Below are positions 24,601 through 35,329 of a stretch of DNA of 63,657 nucleotides, one piece after another. The position numbers and the translations under genes are program-made. Positions within the stretch are counted from its first letter, which is position 1. Each line of letters opens with the position of its first letter. Below the pieces are notes generated by a model. The model was not told the origin of the DNA. It searched no databases and saw only the letters and a program-made list of their open reading frames with translations. The DNA is from Pseudomonadota bacterium (GTDB taxonomy: Bacteria; Desulfobacterota; Desulfobulbia; Desulfobulbales; SURF-16), in contig JAHIVT010000142.1 in NCBI GenBank assembly GCA_018816555.1, positions 1 to 63,657 on the forward strand, in the 5' to 3' direction.

Positions 24601-26129
24601 TGGCAACTGATTTAATCATCAATGCAACATCCTTCGAGATCCGCATTGCCTTGATAGAACACGGCAATCTTGTGGAGTTTTATCTGGAGCGGCCCACCGA
24701 GAAGGGGCTGGTCGGTAATATTTATAAGGGAAAAGTCGTCCGCGTCCTGCCCGGCATGCAGGCGGCTTTCGTCGATATCGGCCTGGAGCGTACCGGTTTT
24801 CTCTATGTGGATGATATCCACGTCAACCGGGCTGATTTTGAAAAACGCTACCAGAATCCGGATGAGGAAGAGTGCTGCTGCATTGAGGCCCCGGAGTCTT
24901 TAAGCAACAGGGTACCCGGCAAGAGTATCGATGATCTGCTGGTGGAGGGACAGGAGCTGCTGGTACAGATCTGCAAGGAGCCCATGGGCAGCAAGGGGGC
25001 CAGGCTGACCGGCCATATCACCCTGCCCTGCCGCAACCTGGTTTTCATGCCCATGACCGATCATATCGGCGTGTCGAGAAAGATCGAGGAAGAGGAGGTC
25101 AGGGAAAAACTTCGCCATGATATCGAGAAACTGCGGCCGGCCGGTACCGGCTTTATCGTCAGGACCGTGGCGGAAGGGGCAAGCAATGAGGAACTCGAGG
25201 CTGATATGGAGTTTCTGCTGCACCTGTGGAGCGAAATCCTTGATAGAGAGGGCAAGGCGTCCTGCATGACCCTGGTCTACGAGGATCTGGATATCATTCT
25301 GCGGGTGGTGCGCGACATCTTTTCGCCAAACATCGACCGGGTTGTGGTTGATGATCGGCGGACCTATGAGCGGGTCATTAATTTTGTTGAAACCTTCGTG
25401 CCCCATCTGCGGCCCAAGGTGCATCATTACGACAGCAAGATTCCGATTTTTACCGCCTACGGGGTTGAGATGGATATCAACCGGGCCCTGTCCAGAAAAA
25501 TCTGGTTGCGCTGCGGCGGGTATATCATCATCGAGGCCACCGAGGCGCTTACCGTAATTGATGTGAACACAGGCCGCTATGTGGGTAAAACCGACCTGGA
25601 GGAGACGATTTTCAAGACCAATATGGAGGCGGTGAAGGAAATCGCCTATCAGCTGCGGCTGCGGAATATCGGCGGCATCATTATCATCGACTTCATCGAC
25701 ATGGAAAGCGAGGAGCACCGGGACGAGGTCTTCCGGGTGCTGCAGGAGGCGATCAAAAAGGACAAGAGTCGCATCAATATCCTCAAATTTTCGGAATTCG
25801 GGCTGATTCAGCTCACCCGCAAGCGCAACAGGGATGATCTGACCCGTATCATGTGTGAGCCGTGCCCCTGCTGCAGCGGCTCGGGCAGGATCAAATCAGC
25901 CCGCACAACCTCCTATGAAATTTTTCGCACCATTGCCCGAGATGCCGACAAGATGAAGGCCTCAACGGTGACCGTCAATGTCAACCCCAAGGTGGCGGCG
26001 ATGATGCTAAAAGATGAGGCGATGACCATAAAGAATCTTGAAGACGAGATCAAAATGACCCTGATTATTTTCCCTAACCGGGAGCTGCATATGGAAAAAT
26101 ATGAGATCAGCTGGGATAAGGGGAAGTGA
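24600..26129 (+). CDS. rng: Ribonuclease G
   Basis: A 509-residue RNase E/G family endonuclease that matures 16S rRNA 5' ends and degrades mRNA. An S1-like domain opens the protein (GNIYKGKVVRVLPGMQAAFVDIG). The catalytic metal site is in VIDVNTGRYVG and GIIIIDFIDM, and the Zn-link is CEPCPCC. The C-terminal scaffold of RNase E is absent, so it is the short RNase G type. In related genomes rng is followed directly by rplU; here a divergent three-gene island intervenes. Confidence 0.96.
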   Translation: MATDLIINATSFEIRIALIEHGNLVEFYLERPTEKGLVGNIYKGKVVRVLPGMQAAFVDIGLERTGFLYVDDIHVNRADFEKRYQNPDEEECCCIEAPESLSNRVPGKSIDDLLVEGQELLVQICKEPMGSKGARLTGHITLPCRNLVFMPMTDHIGVSRKIEEEEVREKLRHDIEKLRPAGTGFIVRTVAEGASNEELEADMEFLLHLWSEILDREGKASCMTLVYEDLDIILRVVRDIFSPNIDRVVVDDRRTYERVINFVETFVPHLRPKVHHYDSKIPIFTAYGVEMDINRALSRKIWLRCGGYIIIEATEALTVIDVNTGRYVGKTDLEETIFKTNMEAVKEIAYQLRLRNIGGIIIIDFIDMESEEHRDEVFRVLQEAIKKDKSRINILKFSEFGLIQLTRKRNRDDLTRIMCEPCPCCSGSGRIKSARTTSYEIFRTIARDADKMKASTVTVNVNPKVAAMMLKDEAMTIKNLEDEIKMTLIIFPNRELHMEKYEISWDKGK

Positions 26130-26171
26130 GGGGGCGCTTTTATTTGATAGTTTTGAAAGAATTGGAAAGTT

Positions 26172-26250
26172 ACCACGGAGAGCACAGAGCCCACAGAGCA
26201 ACTGACTGTAACAAAAAATATTTCTCTGTGGTCTCTGTGTGCTCTGTGGT
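26172..26250. repeat. Long imperfect inverted repeat between rng and the cyclase gene
   Basis: A 27-base arm at 26172-26198 (rich in CCAC and AGAG) pairs with 26224-26250 at 23 of 27 positions, with about 25 bases between. It lies between the convergent ends of rng and the cyclase gene and could act as a bidirectional terminator or be an intergenic repeat element. Short A and T runs flank it (AAAAAA after the right arm). Confidence 0.7.
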
Positions 26251-26277
26251 GAAAAAAGACTTTTAAGGTGTTCCTTT

Positions 26278-28527
26278 CTATTTCGTGGTAAAGGTAAAGA
26301 CTCCGTCCCAATCCCGCGGTGGCGGCGCGCTGAGGAAAACATCGATTCTCTCCAGATAGAGGCGGTAGAGCTTGAGGTTGTTTTGCTCATACAGTGCGCT
26401 CATGATCTGCCGGGCAGCAATAAAATCCTGCTGCCGATAGGCGGTTATCGCTTCCTGGAAACGTGTCACCTCCCGGCGCAGATCCCCATCCGGTTCACCC
26501 TCGCACAGCGGTTCAAAGATGTTTACCGGCAGTTTTTTGCCCTTGACCTGCACCCGGTCGACAAACCTGCAGAAAAAACCCGCTCCTGCCGCATCCCTGG
26601 TTGATTCGCTGATCAGGATGCGGCAGCCGTAGACCTTGGTCAGCCCCTCCAGGCGGGAGGCCAGGTTGACATTGTCGCCGATTACCGTGTAGTCAAAACG
26701 CTGGGTGCTGCCGAAATTTCCCACATTCATCTCGCCGGTGTTGAGTCCGATGCCGATTTGTATTTCCCCTTGCTGTTCTTCTTGGAGTTCCTTCTGCAGC
26801 TCCGCCAGTTGTCTGATTGAGGCCAGCGAGGCCCGGACGGCCCTGGCCGCATGATTGTGGTCCGCCAGGGGCGCGCCCCAGATGGCCATGATCGCATCGC
26901 CGATATATTTGTCCACCGTGCCGCCATGTTCCAGCAGAACCGAGCTCATGGCGGTGAGATAGAGATTCATGAAGCGCCCAAGCTGGTTTGGGGTCATCTT
27001 CTCGGAAATTGTCGTAAAATCACGAATATCGCTGAAAAAAACCGTCAAGTTCCTCACCTGGCCGGAAAGGGAGAGATTGGCCGGATTCTTGATAATCTCG
27101 CTCACCACATCAGGTGAGACATAATGTCCGAAGGCATCCCGCAGAAAACGTTTCTCCCGGCCGGCAAAAAAGTAATTGCTCAGGGTCACCACCAGAAAGA
27201 CCGTGATAATGGTCAGCAGCGGATAGGTAATGCCGATGATCTTGTTGTTTAAAAAGAAAAAATAGGATCCGCCGGCGGTGGCCAGCAGACACAGCAGACC
27301 GCCCAGTGCCCCGGCCACGGGGGTGGCGTAGGCCAGCAGGGCGCTGAGCAGCAGGCCGCTGCCCGCCACCAGGGCATAGGTCATGCCGATTTCCGTGTAG
27401 AGATCATAGGTCAGCGGATCGCCGGCCAGCAGATTGTCCATGACGGTGGCCTGGATTTCCACCCCGGGAAAGATGTTGGCAAAGGGGGTGGCCCGCAGGT
27501 CAAGCAGCCCGGCTGCCGAGGTGCCGATGAGCACGTATTTATCCCTGAGCCTGTCAAGATGAAGGCCGGCAAGTACATCGGCAGCCGGAACATAGGCAAA
27601 GGTTTTCACCGGTCCCCGGTAGTTGACGGTGAGCTGGCCCTGGTCATCGGTGGGGATGAATTTGCCGGCCGCGGTGATTCCCAGGATGCCTTTCTGCGTC
27701 GTCTCCACCTGCTGGGAAATGTGGATGGTCACCTCCTGTTCCCCACCCAGGCCGATCCGCATGGTTTCCAGAGCCAGCGAAGGGTAGGGCACGCCGTTTA
27801 AGGCCATGAAGAGCGGCACCTTGCGGATGGTGCCTGAGGGATCTGGAAAGACGTTGAAAAAACCTTCGCTTTCCGCCTGGGATACATCCGTGATGTTGAC
27901 AATGGCATTGCTGGCCTGGATAAAATTGATCGAGGACAGTGAAGTGGCCGGCGGGTCAAGGTGGATGGTGCAGGAGGGAAAAGGGACATTGTCCTCAAGA
28001 TCTTTTTGCGGGCTGGTAAGAAAGACATAGCCCAGGACACTGGGTATGGTCGCCAGGGTGTCTCCCAGGATCAGGTCATGGTCCAGGGAGGGATTGGCGC
28101 GGAGGGCGTTTCGTTCTTCTTCGGAAACAGGGTTGGTCAGCAGATCGATGATGCCGTCGAGATGATTTTTCGGAGAGGTCCTGTCCGGTTCGGCAAAGAC
28201 AATATCAAAGCCGACGACCCTGGCTCCGGCCTGATGGATCTGCGTTATCAGGTCAGCCACGGTGTTTCTGGGCCAGGGCCATTGACCGATCCTGGCCAGG
28301 CTCGCATCGTCAATATCCACAATCACCACCTGACCGCTGATGGGGGTTTGGCCCCGGATGGTGAACATGACATCGGTCAGCCGGTTGTCAAAGGAGGTGA
28401 GCAGCTGCGGCTTGCGATTGCCGAAAAGGTAAAATAGGCAAAGCGCCGCAATCACCACCATGCAGCCGATTTTAAAGGGGGATGGTTTGAGGTATGAAGG
28501 TATCATCCGGATGTCTGTTTGGGTCAT
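26278..28527 (-). CDS. CHASE2-domain class III adenylate/guanylate cyclase
   Basis: A 749-residue membrane protein. After one N-terminal membrane segment (about 18-34) comes a CHASE2 sensory domain (about 42-365; FDNRLTDVMFTIRG, VVIVDIDDASLARIGQWPWPR, YVLIGTSAAGLLDLRATPF). Three membrane segments follow (about 375-460), then a catalytic class III cyclase domain (about 490-690). The two metal aspartates are in VFFSDIRDFTT and KYIGDAIMAIWG, and the transition-state region in FDYTVIGDNVNLASRLEG. The enzyme should make cAMP (possibly cGMP) in response to a periplasmic cue. It starts 12 bases after the FecR gene, so they form one operon. Confidence 0.93.
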   Translation of the reverse strand: MTQTDIRMIPSYLKPSPFKIGCMVVIAALCLFYLFGNRKPQLLTSFDNRLTDVMFTIRGQTPISGQVVIVDIDDASLARIGQWPWPRNTVADLITQIHQAGARVVGFDIVFAEPDRTSPKNHLDGIIDLLTNPVSEEERNALRANPSLDHDLILGDTLATIPSVLGYVFLTSPQKDLEDNVPFPSCTIHLDPPATSLSSINFIQASNAIVNITDVSQAESEGFFNVFPDPSGTIRKVPLFMALNGVPYPSLALETMRIGLGGEQEVTIHISQQVETTQKGILGITAAGKFIPTDDQGQLTVNYRGPVKTFAYVPAADVLAGLHLDRLRDKYVLIGTSAAGLLDLRATPFANIFPGVEIQATVMDNLLAGDPLTYDLYTEIGMTYALVAGSGLLLSALLAYATPVAGALGGLLCLLATAGGSYFFFLNNKIIGITYPLLTIITVFLVVTLSNYFFAGREKRFLRDAFGHYVSPDVVSEIIKNPANLSLSGQVRNLTVFFSDIRDFTTISEKMTPNQLGRFMNLYLTAMSSVLLEHGGTVDKYIGDAIMAIWGAPLADHNHAARAVRASLASIRQLAELQKELQEEQQGEIQIGIGLNTGEMNVGNFGSTQRFDYTVIGDNVNLASRLEGLTKVYGCRILISESTRDAAGAGFFCRFVDRVQVKGKKLPVNIFEPLCEGEPDGDLRREVTRFQEAITAYRQQDFIAARQIMSALYEQNNLKLYRLYLERIDVFLSAPPPRDWDGVFTFTTK

Positions 28528-28539
28528 GTCGCCGCCGGA

Positions 28540-30822
28540 TTACCGGGTGCCGCCGTATATGCCGATGTAGCTTTTGCCCGAACTGAACGGGGCATAAAAG
28601 TTGCCGGCTATTGATTTTGCCTTGGGGCCGTAAAATGCGCCGTTGAAGGTACCGTTCGACATGATGCCGGCCGGGCCGGTCACGCCGTAGACATTGTTGC
28701 TGAAGCCGCCGGCAGAGGCGTTGCCGGCCGGACCGCTGTTGACGTATAGATCCATGCCGTCCAGCTTGATGACTCCCTGCACCGCGCTGGCGGCATTGAG
28801 GTTGCCGAAGTCAACGTCGATCTCAACGGTGCCCTGGAGGTCGGTCACCTGTTTTGCCGCCGTGGGGTCGATTTTGCTGGCATAGGCTGTGCCGCTGTAG
28901 TGGCCGGTGAAGCTGGTGCTGACCAGTTCATTGACCTCGGCCACCGAGGTCGGTTCGCCGGCAATCCAGCGGGAGCCGGGGACATGGGTGTGGTATTGGG
29001 CGCCGCTGGCCGGATCCCTATAGGCGATCTCCCAGTAGCCCCAGGTGACGTAGTCGCTGATGGTATTGACATGCGGGTCGGCCGAGATCAGGTAATTGCC
29101 GTATTTTTTCAGGCCGGTGGGCGTAGCCGCACCACTGGTGATACAGTCGCCGGTGGCACAGCCCAGTTCCGCGGCGAAATTATCCTCCAGCACAAAGGCC
29201 GAGGCCAGAGCCCCTCCCAGGCCTATTTTGACGAGCCGGGCGTTGGAACCGTTCATGTCAATAGCGGACAGGCTGCCGCTTAAGGTGCCGTTGTCCTTGT
29301 CCACGGTAAAGGAAAAATCACCGGGGCTGCTGTTCATGAATAAGCGTCTATCCGAGTTAATAGAGGCCATATTTTCGGAAACACCTACCACATAACCCTT
29401 CCACGTCTTGACTCCCTTGGGAGAAGTCACGTCGGCCGGATCCTGGGGTTCCTTGGTGCCGGTCCCCTGGATAGTCCAGGAGTCATGCAACGGCTGGTTG
29501 AACGGTTCGATCTCATAAGCGTTGCCCGAGCCGGTGAAATTGAAAAGATCCAAGGCGGTGCCGCCTAGGGTGCCGCTGGCCGAACCATAGAGAGCCGTGA
29601 CCTGCCCCAGTGTCCCATCGGGAGTTTCCAGGTTGCTGCCCAGGATTCTGACATTGGTGATCTGGTTGCCGCTCACCTTGCCGATAAAAAAGACAGGCGG
29701 CTCGCCGGGCTGGCCCTTGATGCGGCCCAGCACCTTGCCGCTGTGCCAGTTTACTTCCATCCATAACTCATCATTAATGGTGCTGGTTGTGCCGTCCGCA
29801 TTGGTGGCGGTGCCGGTAAGGGTGCCGAAGTAGCTGGAAATTCCATCAGTCGGCACGGTGGTTGCGGCGGGCGAGGTATCAATGACCGGCGCTAGTTCAT
29901 TGGGCGGCGGCAGCTCAATGACCGGCGTGTCAACAGTCGTATCCGTGGTCACGGGGGCGATATCGGCAATGGTTGCAGTGTCAGCTTGATCGCTAACCTG
30001 TTCATCCACCGCGGTTTCATCAGCTGCCGGTTCTGCCGCCGGTTGGGCAGCTCCTTCATCTTCGCTGCCGTCAACGGCCTGCTCATCCTGGGCAGCGGCC
30101 TCGTCGTTGCTTCCCTCTTCCACGGTGCCGGTGGCCTGGTCTTCGTCCCCTTCGCCAGCGGCGGTCAGCTCATTACTGAAGGCGGCCAGATCCTGCTCGG
30201 ACAGCTGGCGCGGCGCCTCGGGCGCACTGTTCATGGTGACATTGGTGCCATGGCCCGGCCTGGAAATCGCCACCGTGCCGAAGGGATTGGTCACATTAAT
30301 GCCCTTGCCGCCCTGGAAAACCACGGCGAGTGAGGTAGGGGTCACGGTTCCGGCGTACATGGAACCGCGGATGCCGATGGTGGCGGCCGGGGTCTCGGTG
30401 GTGAAGTTCTGCGGGGAGGTCTTGGTGATGGCGCCCCCCATCACCCGGAAAACCCCCTCCTTGATCTTTGTTTTCAGGGAGCCGTTCTTTTCTTCCGGCT
30501 GCCATCTGTATTCGGCGATCTTCATTTCGCTGCTCTGGCCGAGACTGTAGATGGTGTTGTCGGTAAAGAGGATCTGGATGCGGCCACCTTTGGCTGTTTT
30601 GATGGTGTCTTCAGTATGGATCGGCGACTTGACAACAAGTTTGCGCATCTCGCCATTGCTGTTGATGGCCTGCACATTGCCCCGGCAGGCCACCACCGTT
30701 GCTGCAGCCTCTTGCCCCGGTTCTTCCCCGGCCTGAACCGCGAGTGGCAGGAGCAGAAGCAGGATAAGCAGGGCAAAAAAGGAACTGAAGTATTGAGTGG
30801 GCAGGCAGCTTCTTTTCTTCAT
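28540..30822 (-). CDS. Secreted FecR-domain protein with C-terminal TbpB-like (Slam-substrate) segment
   Basis: A 760-residue protein with a signal peptide ending near AVQA-GEE (residue 31) and no lipobox. A FecR domain spans about 40-190: PIHTEDTIKTAKGGRIQILF, DNTIYSLGQSSEM and TPAATIGIRGSMY. An acidic, alanine-rich linker follows (about 215-310). The second half is Gly/Ser/Thr-rich and ends with EIDVDFGNLNAASAVQGVIK, then SNGTFNGAFYGPKAKSIAGNF. The pattern of a DVDFGN strand and a GxFYGPxAxxxxGxF turn is the signature of the small beta-barrels of transferrin-binding-protein-B-like proteins. Those barrels are recognised by Slam translocons, and a Slam-like gene lies 35 bases upstream. FecR domains in this setting probably bind glycan or protein; this is inference. 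Confidence 0.8.
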   Translation of the reverse strand: MKKRSCLPTQYFSSFFALLILLLLLPLAVQAGEEPGQEAAATVVACRGNVQAINSNGEMRKLVVKSPIHTEDTIKTAKGGRIQILFTDNTIYSLGQSSEMKIAEYRWQPEEKNGSLKTKIKEGVFRVMGGAITKTSPQNFTTETPAATIGIRGSMYAGTVTPTSLAVVFQGGKGINVTNPFGTVAISRPGHGTNVTMNSAPEAPRQLSEQDLAAFSNELTAAGEGDEDQATGTVEEGSNDEAAAQDEQAVDGSEDEGAAQPAAEPAADETAVDEQVSDQADTATIADIAPVTTDTTVDTPVIELPPPNELAPVIDTSPAATTVPTDGISSYFGTLTGTATNADGTTSTINDELWMEVNWHSGKVLGRIKGQPGEPPVFFIGKVSGNQITNVRILGSNLETPDGTLGQVTALYGSASGTLGGTALDLFNFTGSGNAYEIEPFNQPLHDSWTIQGTGTKEPQDPADVTSPKGVKTWKGYVVGVSENMASINSDRRLFMNSSPGDFSFTVDKDNGTLSGSLSAIDMNGSNARLVKIGLGGALASAFVLEDNFAAELGCATGDCITSGAATPTGLKKYGNYLISADPHVNTISDYVTWGYWEIAYRDPASGAQYHTHVPGSRWIAGEPTSVAEVNELVSTSFTGHYSGTAYASKIDPTAAKQVTDLQGTVEIDVDFGNLNAASAVQGVIKLDGMDLYVNSGPAGNASAGGFSNNVYGVTGPAGIMSNGTFNGAFYGPKAKSIAGNFYAPFSSGKSYIGIYGGTR

Positions 30823-30857
30823 GGCATGGGTCCCTTTTTTTCTTGCATGGGCAGATA

Positions 30858-32156
30858 TTAAAATCCCAAGGTCATTGAAAGCGTGATGACACTCTTCCGG
30901 TAGGTGTAGATGTCGATATTGGATTCCGAGTCCAGATAATTGTAGACAAGCTGGGCTGAAAGGGTCCTGCGTGCGTCCTCGGACTGCCAGAGCAGCTTTG
31001 CCAGGCCTGCCCGTAAATCCTCAATGGTATCGGAGCGGGTGACCAGGAAGAAAGGATCCGCTTCCTTATAATCGCTCTTCTGCATGCCGATGCTGGCGAA
31101 GGCGGAGATGTCTCCGCTCAGTTGCCGGTCATACTGAAGGGTCCAGCCGATCCGGTCGTACCCGTACACCTTGGCCTCGGCGTCTTCAACCTCCTTGTAA
31201 AAATTGGCGGAGAGCCGATTGGGGCCGACCACCAGCACCGGGTTGACATAAAGCAGGTAGTTGGTGGCATCCCGGAAGCCATCCGTAAAATTGTTCTTTT
31301 CTTCCAGGCGGCCGCCGAAGTTGAGGAGCATGGGGTCTGCGGGCAGGGTCAGGGCGGTGGCGAAGCCGAGGGATTCCTGGTAGCGGTCGTGCTCCACATC
31401 AATATGCTTGGCGGTCACGTTGTTGTTCCACATGAATTTGTCGGTTTTCCAAACCGGCCCGCTGCTCAGGCCGAAGTAGTAGACATCGAGGTCCTGCTGG
31501 TTCTCGTACAGGGCATTATAGTTGGTAAAGGTGGTTTTCCAGGAGAACTGCTGCTCTTCAAAAAGATACACATGGTTGATCACCGCGGTGGTGTCATAGA
31601 TCTGATCACTTTTCGGCGTGGCCGTGGGACCGGTAAGCTGAATTCCCAGGACGGTATCGGAAACCGGCGACTGGTAAACATTGTCATCCCAGTTGACCCC
31701 GGCGGTCAGGGTGCCGGTGACGAAGTGCCGTCTGTCCCCTTCCTTGATGGCGGCAAGATACCTTTCAATATTTTTCCACACCGGCTCCGGCGGATTGGTG
31801 GCCAGCACCTCCCGGAAATACTGTTTGGCCATTTCCTTAAAACCCAGGCGAAGATGGCAGCGGGCAATTTCCAGCTTGACCCGGGTGGCGTTAGGGTCCA
31901 TGATCAGCACCCGGTCATAGGCCATGAGCGCGGTTTCATAGTCGCCCAGTTCAAAGGCAGTGCGGCCGAGATAAAAGTTGATGTCGGGATTGGCCGGGTC
32001 CTCCCTGAATGCCCTGTCAAAATATTTTCGGGCCTCAGTATAGTTGCCGGAAAGAAAGAGTTGTTTGCCCTGTTCGAAATCGGTGGGTGCGGTGGCGGCC
32101 GACCCAGGGCAGGGCAGAAAAAGCATGAACAGCAAAATAGTGAGGAGAAGACGCAT
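30858..32156 (-). CDS. Slam-like TPR/outer-membrane beta-barrel protein
   Basis: A 432-residue protein with a signal peptide (LLFMLFLPCPGSAA), tetratricopeptide repeats at about residues 27-160 (GNYTEARKYFDRAFREDPANP, GDYETALMAYDRVLIMDPN) and a C-terminal half of alternating aromatic and hydrophobic strands, ending in ITLSMTLGF. A terminal phenylalanine is the usual mark of outer-membrane barrels. TPR followed by a barrel of this size (DUF560-like) is the architecture of surface lipoprotein assembly modulators, which move TbpB-like barrels to the cell surface. It is the first gene of the operon, upstream of the FecR gene. Other TPR-barrel proteins, such as those of polysaccharide export, are an alternative. 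Confidence 0.75.
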   Translation of the reverse strand: MRLLLTILLFMLFLPCPGSAATAPTDFEQGKQLFLSGNYTEARKYFDRAFREDPANPDINFYLGRTAFELGDYETALMAYDRVLIMDPNATRVKLEIARCHLRLGFKEMAKQYFREVLATNPPEPVWKNIERYLAAIKEGDRRHFVTGTLTAGVNWDDNVYQSPVSDTVLGIQLTGPTATPKSDQIYDTTAVINHVYLFEEQQFSWKTTFTNYNALYENQQDLDVYYFGLSSGPVWKTDKFMWNNNVTAKHIDVEHDRYQESLGFATALTLPADPMLLNFGGRLEEKNNFTDGFRDATNYLLYVNPVLVVGPNRLSANFYKEVEDAEAKVYGYDRIGWTLQYDRQLSGDISAFASIGMQKSDYKEADPFFLVTRSDTIEDLRAGLAKLLWQSEDARRTLSAQLVYNYLDSESNIDIYTYRKSVITLSMTLGF

Positions 32157-32451
32157 GATGATTTTTTCCAGATTATAAAAGATGTTAGAAGTTATTTTAC
32201 GTTTATAGGCTAGCAGATGAGGCGGGGAAAATAAATTATAAATTTTTGCAACCTGGAGCGAAAATTTGTTTTTCAGTGGTTATCGGGTAAAAAATGTAGG
32301 GGAAAAATCGAACTTGACAAATTTGTCCATTATGGTAATTATGTCTGTTTCCGTTACTTAGATATAACTCCTGCCTGTTCGGAGCCGGTTTGACATTGGC
32401 ACCTCATGCAGGAGATACAGATCATTTTTCGTTTTGGTGTTGGAGGAAGAA
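32157..32451. other. Divergent intergenic region between the Slam-like gene and rplU
   Basis: About 295 bases separating the minus-strand island from rplU. It must hold promoters for both directions. The only clear one is the rplU promoter at 32314-32342. The part next to the island (32160-32280) is AT-rich. Confidence 0.5.
32314..32342 (+). promoter_or_regulatory. Sigma-70 promoter for rplU-rpmA-obgE
   Basis: A perfect TTGACA (32314-32319), a 17-base spacer and AATTAT (32337-32342), about 110 bases upstream of rplU. The -35 and spacing are ideal; the -10 is weak but AT-rich. Confidence 0.6.
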
Positions 32452-32763
32452 ATGTACGCTATTATTCGTACCGGCGGTAAACAGTATCAGGTGGCAGCAG
32501 GCGAGCGTCTTCGAGTTGAAAAGCTTGTCGGCGAAGTAGGCGATACCGTGGAGTTGAATGATGTTTTGCTGGTGGCTGAAGGCGAGACCGTTAAAATTGG
32601 GCAGCCTGCAGTGGAAGGCGCCAAGGTGACGGCTCGGATCGTTGAGCAGGGCAAAGGCAAAAAGATTCTGGTCTTCAAGAAAAAACGCCGCAAAGGCTAC
32701 CAACTGATGAGAGGCCATCGTCAGCTGTATACCTCATTGGAAATTAAAGAGATTTCATTATAA
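32452..32763 (+). CDS. rplU: 50S ribosomal protein L21
   Basis: A 103-residue ribosomal protein: MYAIIRTGGKQYQV at the start and KRRKGYQLMRGHRQ near the end. The ATG at 32452 is preceded by GGAGG at an 8-base spacing (TGGAGGAAGAAATG), so this start is preferred over an upstream in-frame codon at 32434. Confidence 0.97.
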   Translation: MYAIIRTGGKQYQVAAGERLRVEKLVGEVGDTVELNDVLLVAEGETVKIGQPAVEGAKVTARIVEQGKGKKILVFKKKRRKGYQLMRGHRQLYTSLEIKEISL

Positions 32764-32832
32764 CGTTACCTACGGATCAGCGGGAAAGTGGTTGTATCCC
32801 CTATTCGTATTTTTTATTGAAGAGGTCAAACT

Positions 32833-33096
32833 GTGGCACATAAGAAAGCAGGCGGTAGTTCAAAGAACGGCAGAGACAGTAATTCCCAGCGGCGTGGCGT
32901 AAAGAGATTCGGCGGTCAGGTTGTCAGGGCAGGCAATATCCTCGTACGTCAGCTCGGCACCAAAATTCATCCCGGTTCCAATGTGGGCCTGGGTCGTGAT
33001 TATACCCTCTTTGCCTTGGTTGACGGCGTTGTCACCTATGAGAAGTTCGGGAAAGACCGCAAAAGAGTGAGCGTTTATCCTGTAGAAGCTGTTTAA
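32833..33096 (+). CDS. rpmA: 50S ribosomal protein L27
   Basis: An 87-residue protein starting at GTG, with [16 protein letters not shown] and [10 protein letters not shown]-type sequence. The N-terminal AHKKAGGS reaches the peptidyl-transferase centre. There is no N-terminal cleavage extension of the kind seen in Firmicutes. It follows rplU as usual. Confidence 0.97.
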
Positions 33097-33108
33097 GCTT
33101 TTTTTTGA

Positions 33109-35329
<2,221 letters not shown>

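Follow-up and report, generated by a model that had tools for sequence, protein, structure and literature searches.

A conserved operon linking a Slam-type exporter and a FecR/TbpB-like cargo protein to a CHASE2 cyclase, a candidate system for trans-envelope signalling

Why would an outer-membrane exporter, a protein that it may export and a membrane-bound nucleotide cyclase be encoded side by side? This question was raised by a contig of 63,657 nucleotides (JAHIVT010000142.1 of assembly GCA_018816555.1, from a Pseudomonadota bacterium placed by GTDB in the Desulfobulbales), hereafter called the window, in which three minus-strand open reading frames (ORFs) encode a Slam-type protein of the type XI secretion system (T11SS), a FecR/TbpB-like secreted protein that we call the cargo, and a cyclase with a CHASE2 sensor domain (Table 1). 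The genes, their order, their domains and predicted folds, and the conserved catalytic positions were established by computation. The operon is present, conserved and coherent, and the best reading of its predicted function is signalling from FecR to the CHASE2 cyclase, with T11SS as the front end. Specifically, we assign a probability of roughly 0.6 to a trans-envelope cell-surface signalling operon, in which surface binding by the exported lobes of the cargo would be relayed via FecR to the CHASE2 cyclase.

The three genes lie exactly where the initial annotation had placed them, with gaps of 35 and 12 bases, and their transcription order is Slam-type gene, cargo gene and cyclase gene (window 32156-26278, minus strand). 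The operon is isolated, with a divergent plus-strand ORF at 32434 and a convergent ORF ending at 26129. Conservation of this linkage in other genomes, on which the initial annotation had made its proposal depend, was examined in loci from a scan of a genome contig collection (17 loci), from 22 genomes of the family and from 395 genomes of the phylum, the window's own genome included. Cargo matches occurred in 115 of these 395 genomes, and most of the matches listed covered the FecR domain only. ORFs were labelled by profiles for FecR, barrel 1, handle, barrel 2, Slam barrel, CHASE2 and cyclase, and loci with a cargo running from FecR to barrel and with readable flanks were counted, namely the window, 15 loci from the contig collection and 9 further distinct genomes. 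The order Slam-cargo-cyclase on one strand was found in 24 of these 25 loci, including one that is cut inside the cyclase (L010; such labels are our own). Note that the loci were found mainly via the cargo, so that the count describes cargo surroundings and not the frequency of Slam or CHASE2 without cargo.

Some variation was seen within this arrangement. Two tandem cargo genes accompany one Slam and one cyclase gene in L008:2655-7345, the Slam gene is split into two ORFs in G001 and G206, the cargo gene is split in G012, and the barrel 1 match is missing in G206. Nine loci that were cut at contig ends or had no position (L007, L019, G010, G014, G015, G016:C121, G017, G019 and G271) were left out of the count; agreeing neighbours were present as cargo then cyclase in L007, L019 and G271, and as Slam then cargo in G010, G015, G016:C121, G017 and G019. 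Also outside the 25, G133 and G281 kept the order with no C-terminal barrel visible. A fusion of cargo and cyclase genes in G281 was dropped as evidence because of an unread run in the contig between both parts. The contig-collection loci come from Desulfurivibrio, Desulfobacterium, Desulfobacteraceae, Syntrophaceae and Desulfospira joergensenii, with strain DSM 10085 of the last (L011) as a named carrier, and from Desulfobulbaceae in cut loci only; judging from these names, their phylum would be Desulfobacterota. In a relative (G010, at L046), a second Slam lies beside a TbpB-type cargo in which, as far as it was read, FecR is absent.

The first gene product had been described as a TPR-barrel protein of Slam architecture, and this description held. 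Pfam matched TPRs and SlipAM (PF04575; E = 3.4e-7, 30.5 bits against a curated cut-off of 22), and SlipAM was matched at E ≤ 0.01 in 16/16 members of the Slam-type family, while the TPR_Slam N-terminal model scored 20.5 bits, below its cut-off of 35.2. An AlphaFold2 model built from an alignment of 16 homologous sequences (mean predicted local distance difference test score (pLDDT) 89.2, predicted TM-score (pTM) 0.65) contained TPR helices and 14 strands, and thus a barrel unlike Slam was not seen. The best matches of the barrel in VIA-align were CymA (Z 22.3, root-mean-square deviation (rmsd) 3.1, 271 aligned) and OmpG (Z 21.1, rmsd 3.3, 258 aligned), both of which are 14-stranded barrels, and the top Foldseek match was BcsC, a cellulose exporter of the TPR-barrel type (E = 1.0e-11). 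No Slam chain was among the fold matches listed by Foldseek or VIA-align, which excludes nothing; the Slam label therefore rests on the SlipAM profile and the strand count.

The second gene product, presumably secreted, was confirmed as a FecR protein with a TbpB-like end, since both Pfam domains exceeded their cut-offs (FecR, E = 1.3e-7, 32.4 bits against 24; TbpB_B_D at residues 639-760, E = 6.6e-10, 40 bits against 26) and were matched at E ≤ 0.01 in 17/17 and 16/17 family members, respectively. AlphaFold2, given an alignment of 17 homologous sequences, predicted a FecR domain, a disordered region, a barrel, a handle and a second barrel (mean pLDDT 75.7, pTM 0.60), so that the anticipated 8-stranded C-terminal barrel was obtained and the earlier picture is refined to two barrels. 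In VIA-align, the FecR domain matched the PupR CCSSD (6ovk; Z 16.4, rmsd 2.8, 140 aligned) and the C-terminal barrel matched that of fHbp (4ayn; Z 14.5, rmsd 2.1, 111 aligned), with the fHbp and TbpB C-lobe matches spanning residues ~468 to 760. TbpB was the first Foldseek match (E = 1.2e-10), with a TM-score of only 0.18 to 0.26 and an rmsd of 19.5 over 500 columns because the placement of the lobes differs; VIA-align gave Z 14.5 with an rmsd of 18.0 over 299 aligned residues. Further Foldseek matches included hemophilin, fHbp and NHBA, together with PupR and another anti-sigma factor at the FecR part. The NCBIfam slam_lipo model (NF041636) scored 49.8 bits, under its equivalog cut-off of 80, and matched 16/17 cargo members at E ≤ 0.01.

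At the cargo N-terminus, a hydrophobic stretch recognized by eye and a predicted helix at residues 12-30 are compatible with a Sec signal peptide. A pattern scan, together with inspection by eye, found no lipobox at the end of the signal peptide in any of the 17 rows; the pattern matched inside the mature FecR domain in three rows and before the hydrophobic stretch in L004. The linker had pLDDT values below 50 at residues 220-320 and is acidic, with 26% D+E and 0% K+R in the window, and varied in the 17 homologues from 63 to 324 residues, with 11-30% D+E and 0-5% K+R. In addition, a His-x-His motif in the handle (residues 611-613, 28984-28992) is kept in 14/17 homologues and may be a haem or metal site.

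The third gene product is a membrane cyclase with a CHASE2 sensor, as had been proposed, with Pfam matches above the curated cut-offs to CHASE2 (E = 2.1e-60) and Guanylate_cyc (E = 5.9e-23) and hydrophobic windows at residues 18-36, at several places between 380 and 448 and, more weakly, at 152-170. The positions of the metal-binding Asp pair and of the Lys, Asn and Arg in the catalytic site are kept in all 16 aligned cyclases (the window and 15 homologues). The Lys/Thr pair presumably fits class IIIb adenylate cyclases, and ATP would be the substrate. Cyclic AMP (cAMP) receptors are plausible in this organism, given 13 matches over cut-off to cyclic nucleotide-binding domains in its genome.

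The pairing of FecR with CHASE2 was also seen outside the 25 loci. Of six plasmid loci from alphaproteobacteria that were inspected around a CHASE2 cyclase, two shared the three-gene order. One is on pAMI5 of Paracoccus aminophilus JCM 7686, where the FecR protein aligned with the cargo profile over 614 columns (E = 4.6e-15); for the TPR protein, the Slam profile gave an alignment of 361 columns (E = 4.2e-21). For a Shinella plasmid, the FecR part gave E = 7e-10, the C-terminal part E = 5.7e-7 and the Slam part E = 4.6e-22 (294 columns). Pfam SlipAM and TbpB_B_D were below cut-off or absent at both loci, which are therefore regarded as diverged versions. A cyclic nucleotide-binding patatin-like phospholipase is encoded near the Paracoccus version (L080:2146-3972) and is a candidate cAMP target. 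In the remaining four loci, FecR neighbours the cyclase but no Slam/cargo pair of this sort is present, and one of them (Methylocystis) is of the NsrA type. Two rhizobial plasmids (L081, L082) carry NHLP bacteriocin-type export genes next to those for FecR and a CHASE2 cyclase. The 17 barrel-less FecR loci delivered by the phylum search (L062-L078) had CHASE2 within ~1.5 kb in 9 cases, and in the other eight no CHASE2 was present in the DNA read, with a weak Slam-profile match beside FecR in L062, L063 and L074. In the window's own genome, contig C179 encodes a FecR-only and a CHASE2-HD protein, their genes being separated by a single other gene. At L085:8206-11487, a FecR-only protein, an OmpA-like protein (by eye) and a CHASE2-HD protein are encoded, so that the sensor pair recurs there with a different output domain.

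On pSymB of Sinorhizobium meliloti 1021, the gene for a 1219-residue FecR-TPR protein (L105:3875-7534) overlaps a CHASE2 cyclase gene, and from position and length we take this pair to be NsrA and CyaK, which convert an outside protein signal into cAMP, according to the available sections of two reports (PMC7529298, PMC13001267). The FecR domains of the cargo and the 1219-residue protein aligned over 191 columns (E = 2.1e-13), and no TbpB-type match was found in the latter. Because the FecR domains align with the NsrA type and nothing else does beyond the TPRs, FecR-CHASE2 looks like a constant module to which differing outer-membrane front ends are attached.

From these elements, the following sequence of events can be proposed. 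Sec would move the cargo into the periplasm, where its N-terminal FecR domain would fold and probably remain. The Slam-type barrel would recognize the C-terminal TbpB-like barrel of the cargo, and the barrel-handle-barrel region would reach the surface, with the disordered linker joining FecR to the lobes and possibly passing within the Slam pore or alongside it. Binding of an outside ligand would then alter the contact of FecR with the CHASE2 domain, and the cyclase would in turn alter its cAMP output. A more specific form, in which the Slam pore would serve as a permanent receptor seat, with FecR as periplasmic stop, the linker in the barrel and the lobes outside, so that exporter and cargo would jointly act as a trans-outer-membrane receptor controlling the cyclase, is put forward tentatively, at somewhat less than even odds.

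Several observations weigh against signalling by this operon, and they bear on different rivals. In two loci (L009 and L018), cargo and cyclase are parted by a gene on the opposite strand (HAD-type, by eye), and the 25th locus, G203, holds decayed remnants in the same order with the Slam barrel lost. The intervening gene would fit three genes that share a transcript without sharing a function: a secreted T11SS cargo whose N-terminal domain binds in the periplasm, the exporter of that cargo, and a cyclase unrelated to either; direct contact between FecR and CHASE2 is itself deduced. However, the linkage in 24/25 loci, the FecR/CHASE2 pairing in other contexts and the identical gene order on two alphaproteobacterial plasmids make this reading unlikely.

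The topology is the next point to be weighed. Median pairwise identity was higher in the presumed periplasmic parts (FecR, the most conserved part of the cargo, 0.54; CHASE2, 0.53; TPR domain, 0.52 in 16 aligned sequences) than in the presumed outer parts (linker, 0.21; barrel 1, 0.26; Slam barrel, 0.34; barrel 2, 0.38; handle, 0.42), a pattern that supports, without demonstrating, FecR inside and lobes outside. On the other hand, the cytoplasmic cyclase domain was the most conserved of all parts (0.61), so that conservation of the inner parts may reflect ordinary constraint. Resemblance to the retention module of LapA may lend similar support, short of proof, to this placement, as that module sits in the periplasm and an outer-membrane channel anchors the remainder of the adhesin, according to the available part of the source (PMC13090378). 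The NCBIfam model retention_LapA matched 16/17 cargo members at E ≤ 0.01, and the solved LapA retention domain 5ix9 was matched by the cargo alignment profile (E = 1.4e-4); however, the window cargo scored 31.8 bits, below the cut-off of 50, and its FecR domain alone gave a non-significant match to 5ix9 (E = 0.062).

Moreover, Slam1 translocates TbpB unfolded, as stated in the available portion of PMC9090332, and the FecR part could therefore be exported too. This would suit an export checkpoint, in which the cyclase would sense whether the cargo has been exported and not an outside ligand: the FecR domain of cargo still in the periplasm would meet CHASE2, and the signal would stop when the entire protein had passed out via Slam, or the reverse. 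Such a checkpoint requires only FecR-CHASE2 contact and a Slam, and it agrees with the lack of a detectable lipid anchor in the 17 cargo rows. We nevertheless consider it improbable, because the retention modules that FecR resembles remain inside in other systems (PMC13090378, in the sections available), because FecR lies near CHASE2 also where no TbpB-type cargo is seen, and because NsrA/CyaK answers to an outside protein, as far as the accessible text of PMC7529298 describes.

A conserved LapG cleavage site in the cargo linkers was considered and rejected, as it was not conserved across the aligned rows by eye; in the window cargo, the FecR domain is immediately followed by TAAG (residues 220-223, 30154-30165), which is reminiscent of a LapG site, and L003 has AAAG there. 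Elsewhere in the window's genome, a LapG-family protease gene was found (G000:C95, 69 bits). In L125:8588-12774, a LapG-like protease, an HD-domain-like sensor (by eye) and a second SlipAM-matching TPR-barrel protein are encoded in a row, followed by a PEP-CTERM-like protein (by eye).

The remaining rival places the receptor in the exporter. In this case, the Slam-type barrel itself would be receptor or gate, as the NsrA barrel is thought to be, with the cargo as a ligand-binding co-receptor or plug; the NsrA type unites FecR, TPRs and an outer-membrane barrel (~residues 600-1200, according to the part of PMC7529298 at hand) in one protein. However, the Slam barrel shows no more than moderate conservation, and the TbpB-like lobes, which bind ligands elsewhere, belong to the cargo. 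Furthermore, the NsrA-type protein aligned with the Slam-type profile in TPR columns only (111 columns, probability 83.7%), although profile non-alignment does not prove difference; a Slam-like origin of the NsrA barrel was not supported. We regard a receptor role of the Slam barrel as very unlikely. Also to be set against the signalling function are the failure of the two barrels to align and the S. meliloti FecR-domain protein SMc02177, which was dispensable for plant signal perception according to the available text of PMC5498481 and equally speaks against a general FecR-CHASE2 rule. On balance, we retain surface signalling through FecR and CHASE2 as the preferred interpretation.

On both strands of 26000-32600, promoter-like patterns, at 9, were in excess of shuffled sequence (mean 4.1, standard deviation 1.8), whereas terminator-like patterns, at 8, were not (7.3 in shuffles), and no conclusion was drawn from either. 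No RNA family reached the Rfam gathering threshold within 26000-33200.

Table 1. Positions of the operon genes, their predicted domains and the upstream region in the window.
Feature	Position	Strand	Basis
Slam/T11SS-type outer-membrane protein, 432 aa	30858..32156	-	SlipAM and TPRs (Pfam); AlphaFold2 model
TPR domain, residues 26-140, presumed periplasmic	31737..32081	-	Pfam TPRs; AlphaFold2 helices
Predicted 14-stranded beta barrel, residues 144-431	30864..31727	-	AlphaFold2 strands; VIA-align CymA, OmpG
FecR/TbpB-like cargo protein, 760 aa	28540..30822	-	Pfam FecR and TbpB_B_D; AlphaFold2
Putative Sec-type signal peptide without lipobox, ~residues 1-31 by eye	30730..30822	-	Sequence; AlphaFold2 helix 12-30
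FecR domain, residues 39-219	30166..30708	-	VIA-align PupR CCSSD 6ovk; conservation
Disordered acidic linker, residues 220-326	29845..30165	-	Low pLDDT; composition
First 8-stranded barrel, residues 328-457	29452..29841	-	AlphaFold2 strands; TbpB match
Handle domain, residues 471-636	28915..29412	-	AlphaFold2; fHbp/TbpB C-lobe matches
C-terminal 8-stranded barrel, residues 639-759, presumed Slam-recognition domain	28546..28908	-	TbpB_B_D; fHbp C-barrel
CHASE2 class III nucleotide cyclase, 749 aa	26278..28527	-	Pfam
CHASE2 sensor domain, residues 30-371, presumed periplasmic	27415..28440	-	Pfam; hydrophobic windows
Cyclase catalytic domain, residues 490-665	26533..27060	-	Pfam; catalytic positions
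Upstream intergenic region	32157..32433	.	Divergent from plus-strand ORF at 32434; promoter-like pattern matches only

What CHASE2 domains recognize was stated to be unknown in 2016, in the available text of PMC5192318, and the operon offers a testable answer, namely a FecR-tethered surface protein. If the signalling function is true, the roles of Slam/T11SS, so far nutrient capture and adhesion and met for the most part in animal-associated bacteria, would come to include signalling in environmental ones, and information would have a route across the outer membrane without a TonB receptor. If the Slam pore is indeed a permanent receptor seat, T11SS would be put to a new use, and the signal would cross the outer membrane by a new route. 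To the initial annotation, such a surface-sensing system was not known to have been described, and this stands in part. Pairing of FecR with a CHASE2 cyclase is in print (PMC9239204, in its available sections, and NsrA/CyaK), so that the new element is its coupling to Slam and a TbpB-type cargo, which our literature search, covering the main text of papers, did not find linked to FecR/CHASE2-cyclase clusters. The same search returned no paper joining DUF560 with FecR, and CHASE2 was absent from the ten DUF560/SlipAM/TbpB papers listed.

Comparison with known systems places the operon between several of them. It resembles FecI-FecR-FecA and PupR in having a FecR-type periplasmic domain with the PupR CCSSD fold; unlike in those systems, FecR follows the signal peptide with no anti-sigma domain in the cargo, the output is a cyclase, and neither a sigma factor nor a TonB receptor is encoded among the three genes. 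With LapA-type adhesins it shares the N-terminal retention-module resemblance and the idea of a protein that stays lodged in a pore of the outer membrane, whereas type 1 secretion is used there (PMC13090378, available part), the match here is under the NCBIfam cut-off and the LapG motif is not conserved. In the BiofilmReg operon of Burkholderia, an extracytoplasmic FecR-domain protein is likewise encoded beside a CHASE2 sensor protein; there, FecR is joined to LysM and CHASE2 to a histidine kinase, and Slam and TbpB-type cargo are both absent from the available text (PMC5192318).

With respect to the exporter, the T11SS topology is a 14-stranded barrel, and nine of ten T11SS clusters are uncharacterised, according to the accessible part of PMC8406197. 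Slam/T11SS systems with TbpB, fHbp or HphA/HrpC likewise combine a TPR and 14-stranded exporter with a cargo consisting of a handle and a C-terminal 8-stranded barrel (PMC8406197, PMC12282271, PMC8560813, as available). However, none of the roughly ten cargo architectures in the available text of PMC12282271, which surveys T11SS clusters 1 and 3 only, is mentioned with FecR, and a search of that text for FecR, cyclase and CHASE2 found none of these terms. The Campylobacterota clusters include a phosphodiesterase, which is not among the three genes here, and Slam and TbpB-type domains are both unmentioned in the sections available (PMC9239204); as in our operon, genes for a FecR-domain protein, in that case at the outer membrane, a TPR protein and a CHASE2 cyclase lie together, and one pathway was proposed for them. 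Finally, exporter and sensor are two proteins here, while NsrA-CyaK of S. meliloti has one 1219-residue protein, without a TbpB-type match and with a barrel that did not align with Slam, yet both systems combine FecR with TPRs and a link to the outer membrane, are encoded beside a CHASE2 cyclase and carry homologous FecR domains.

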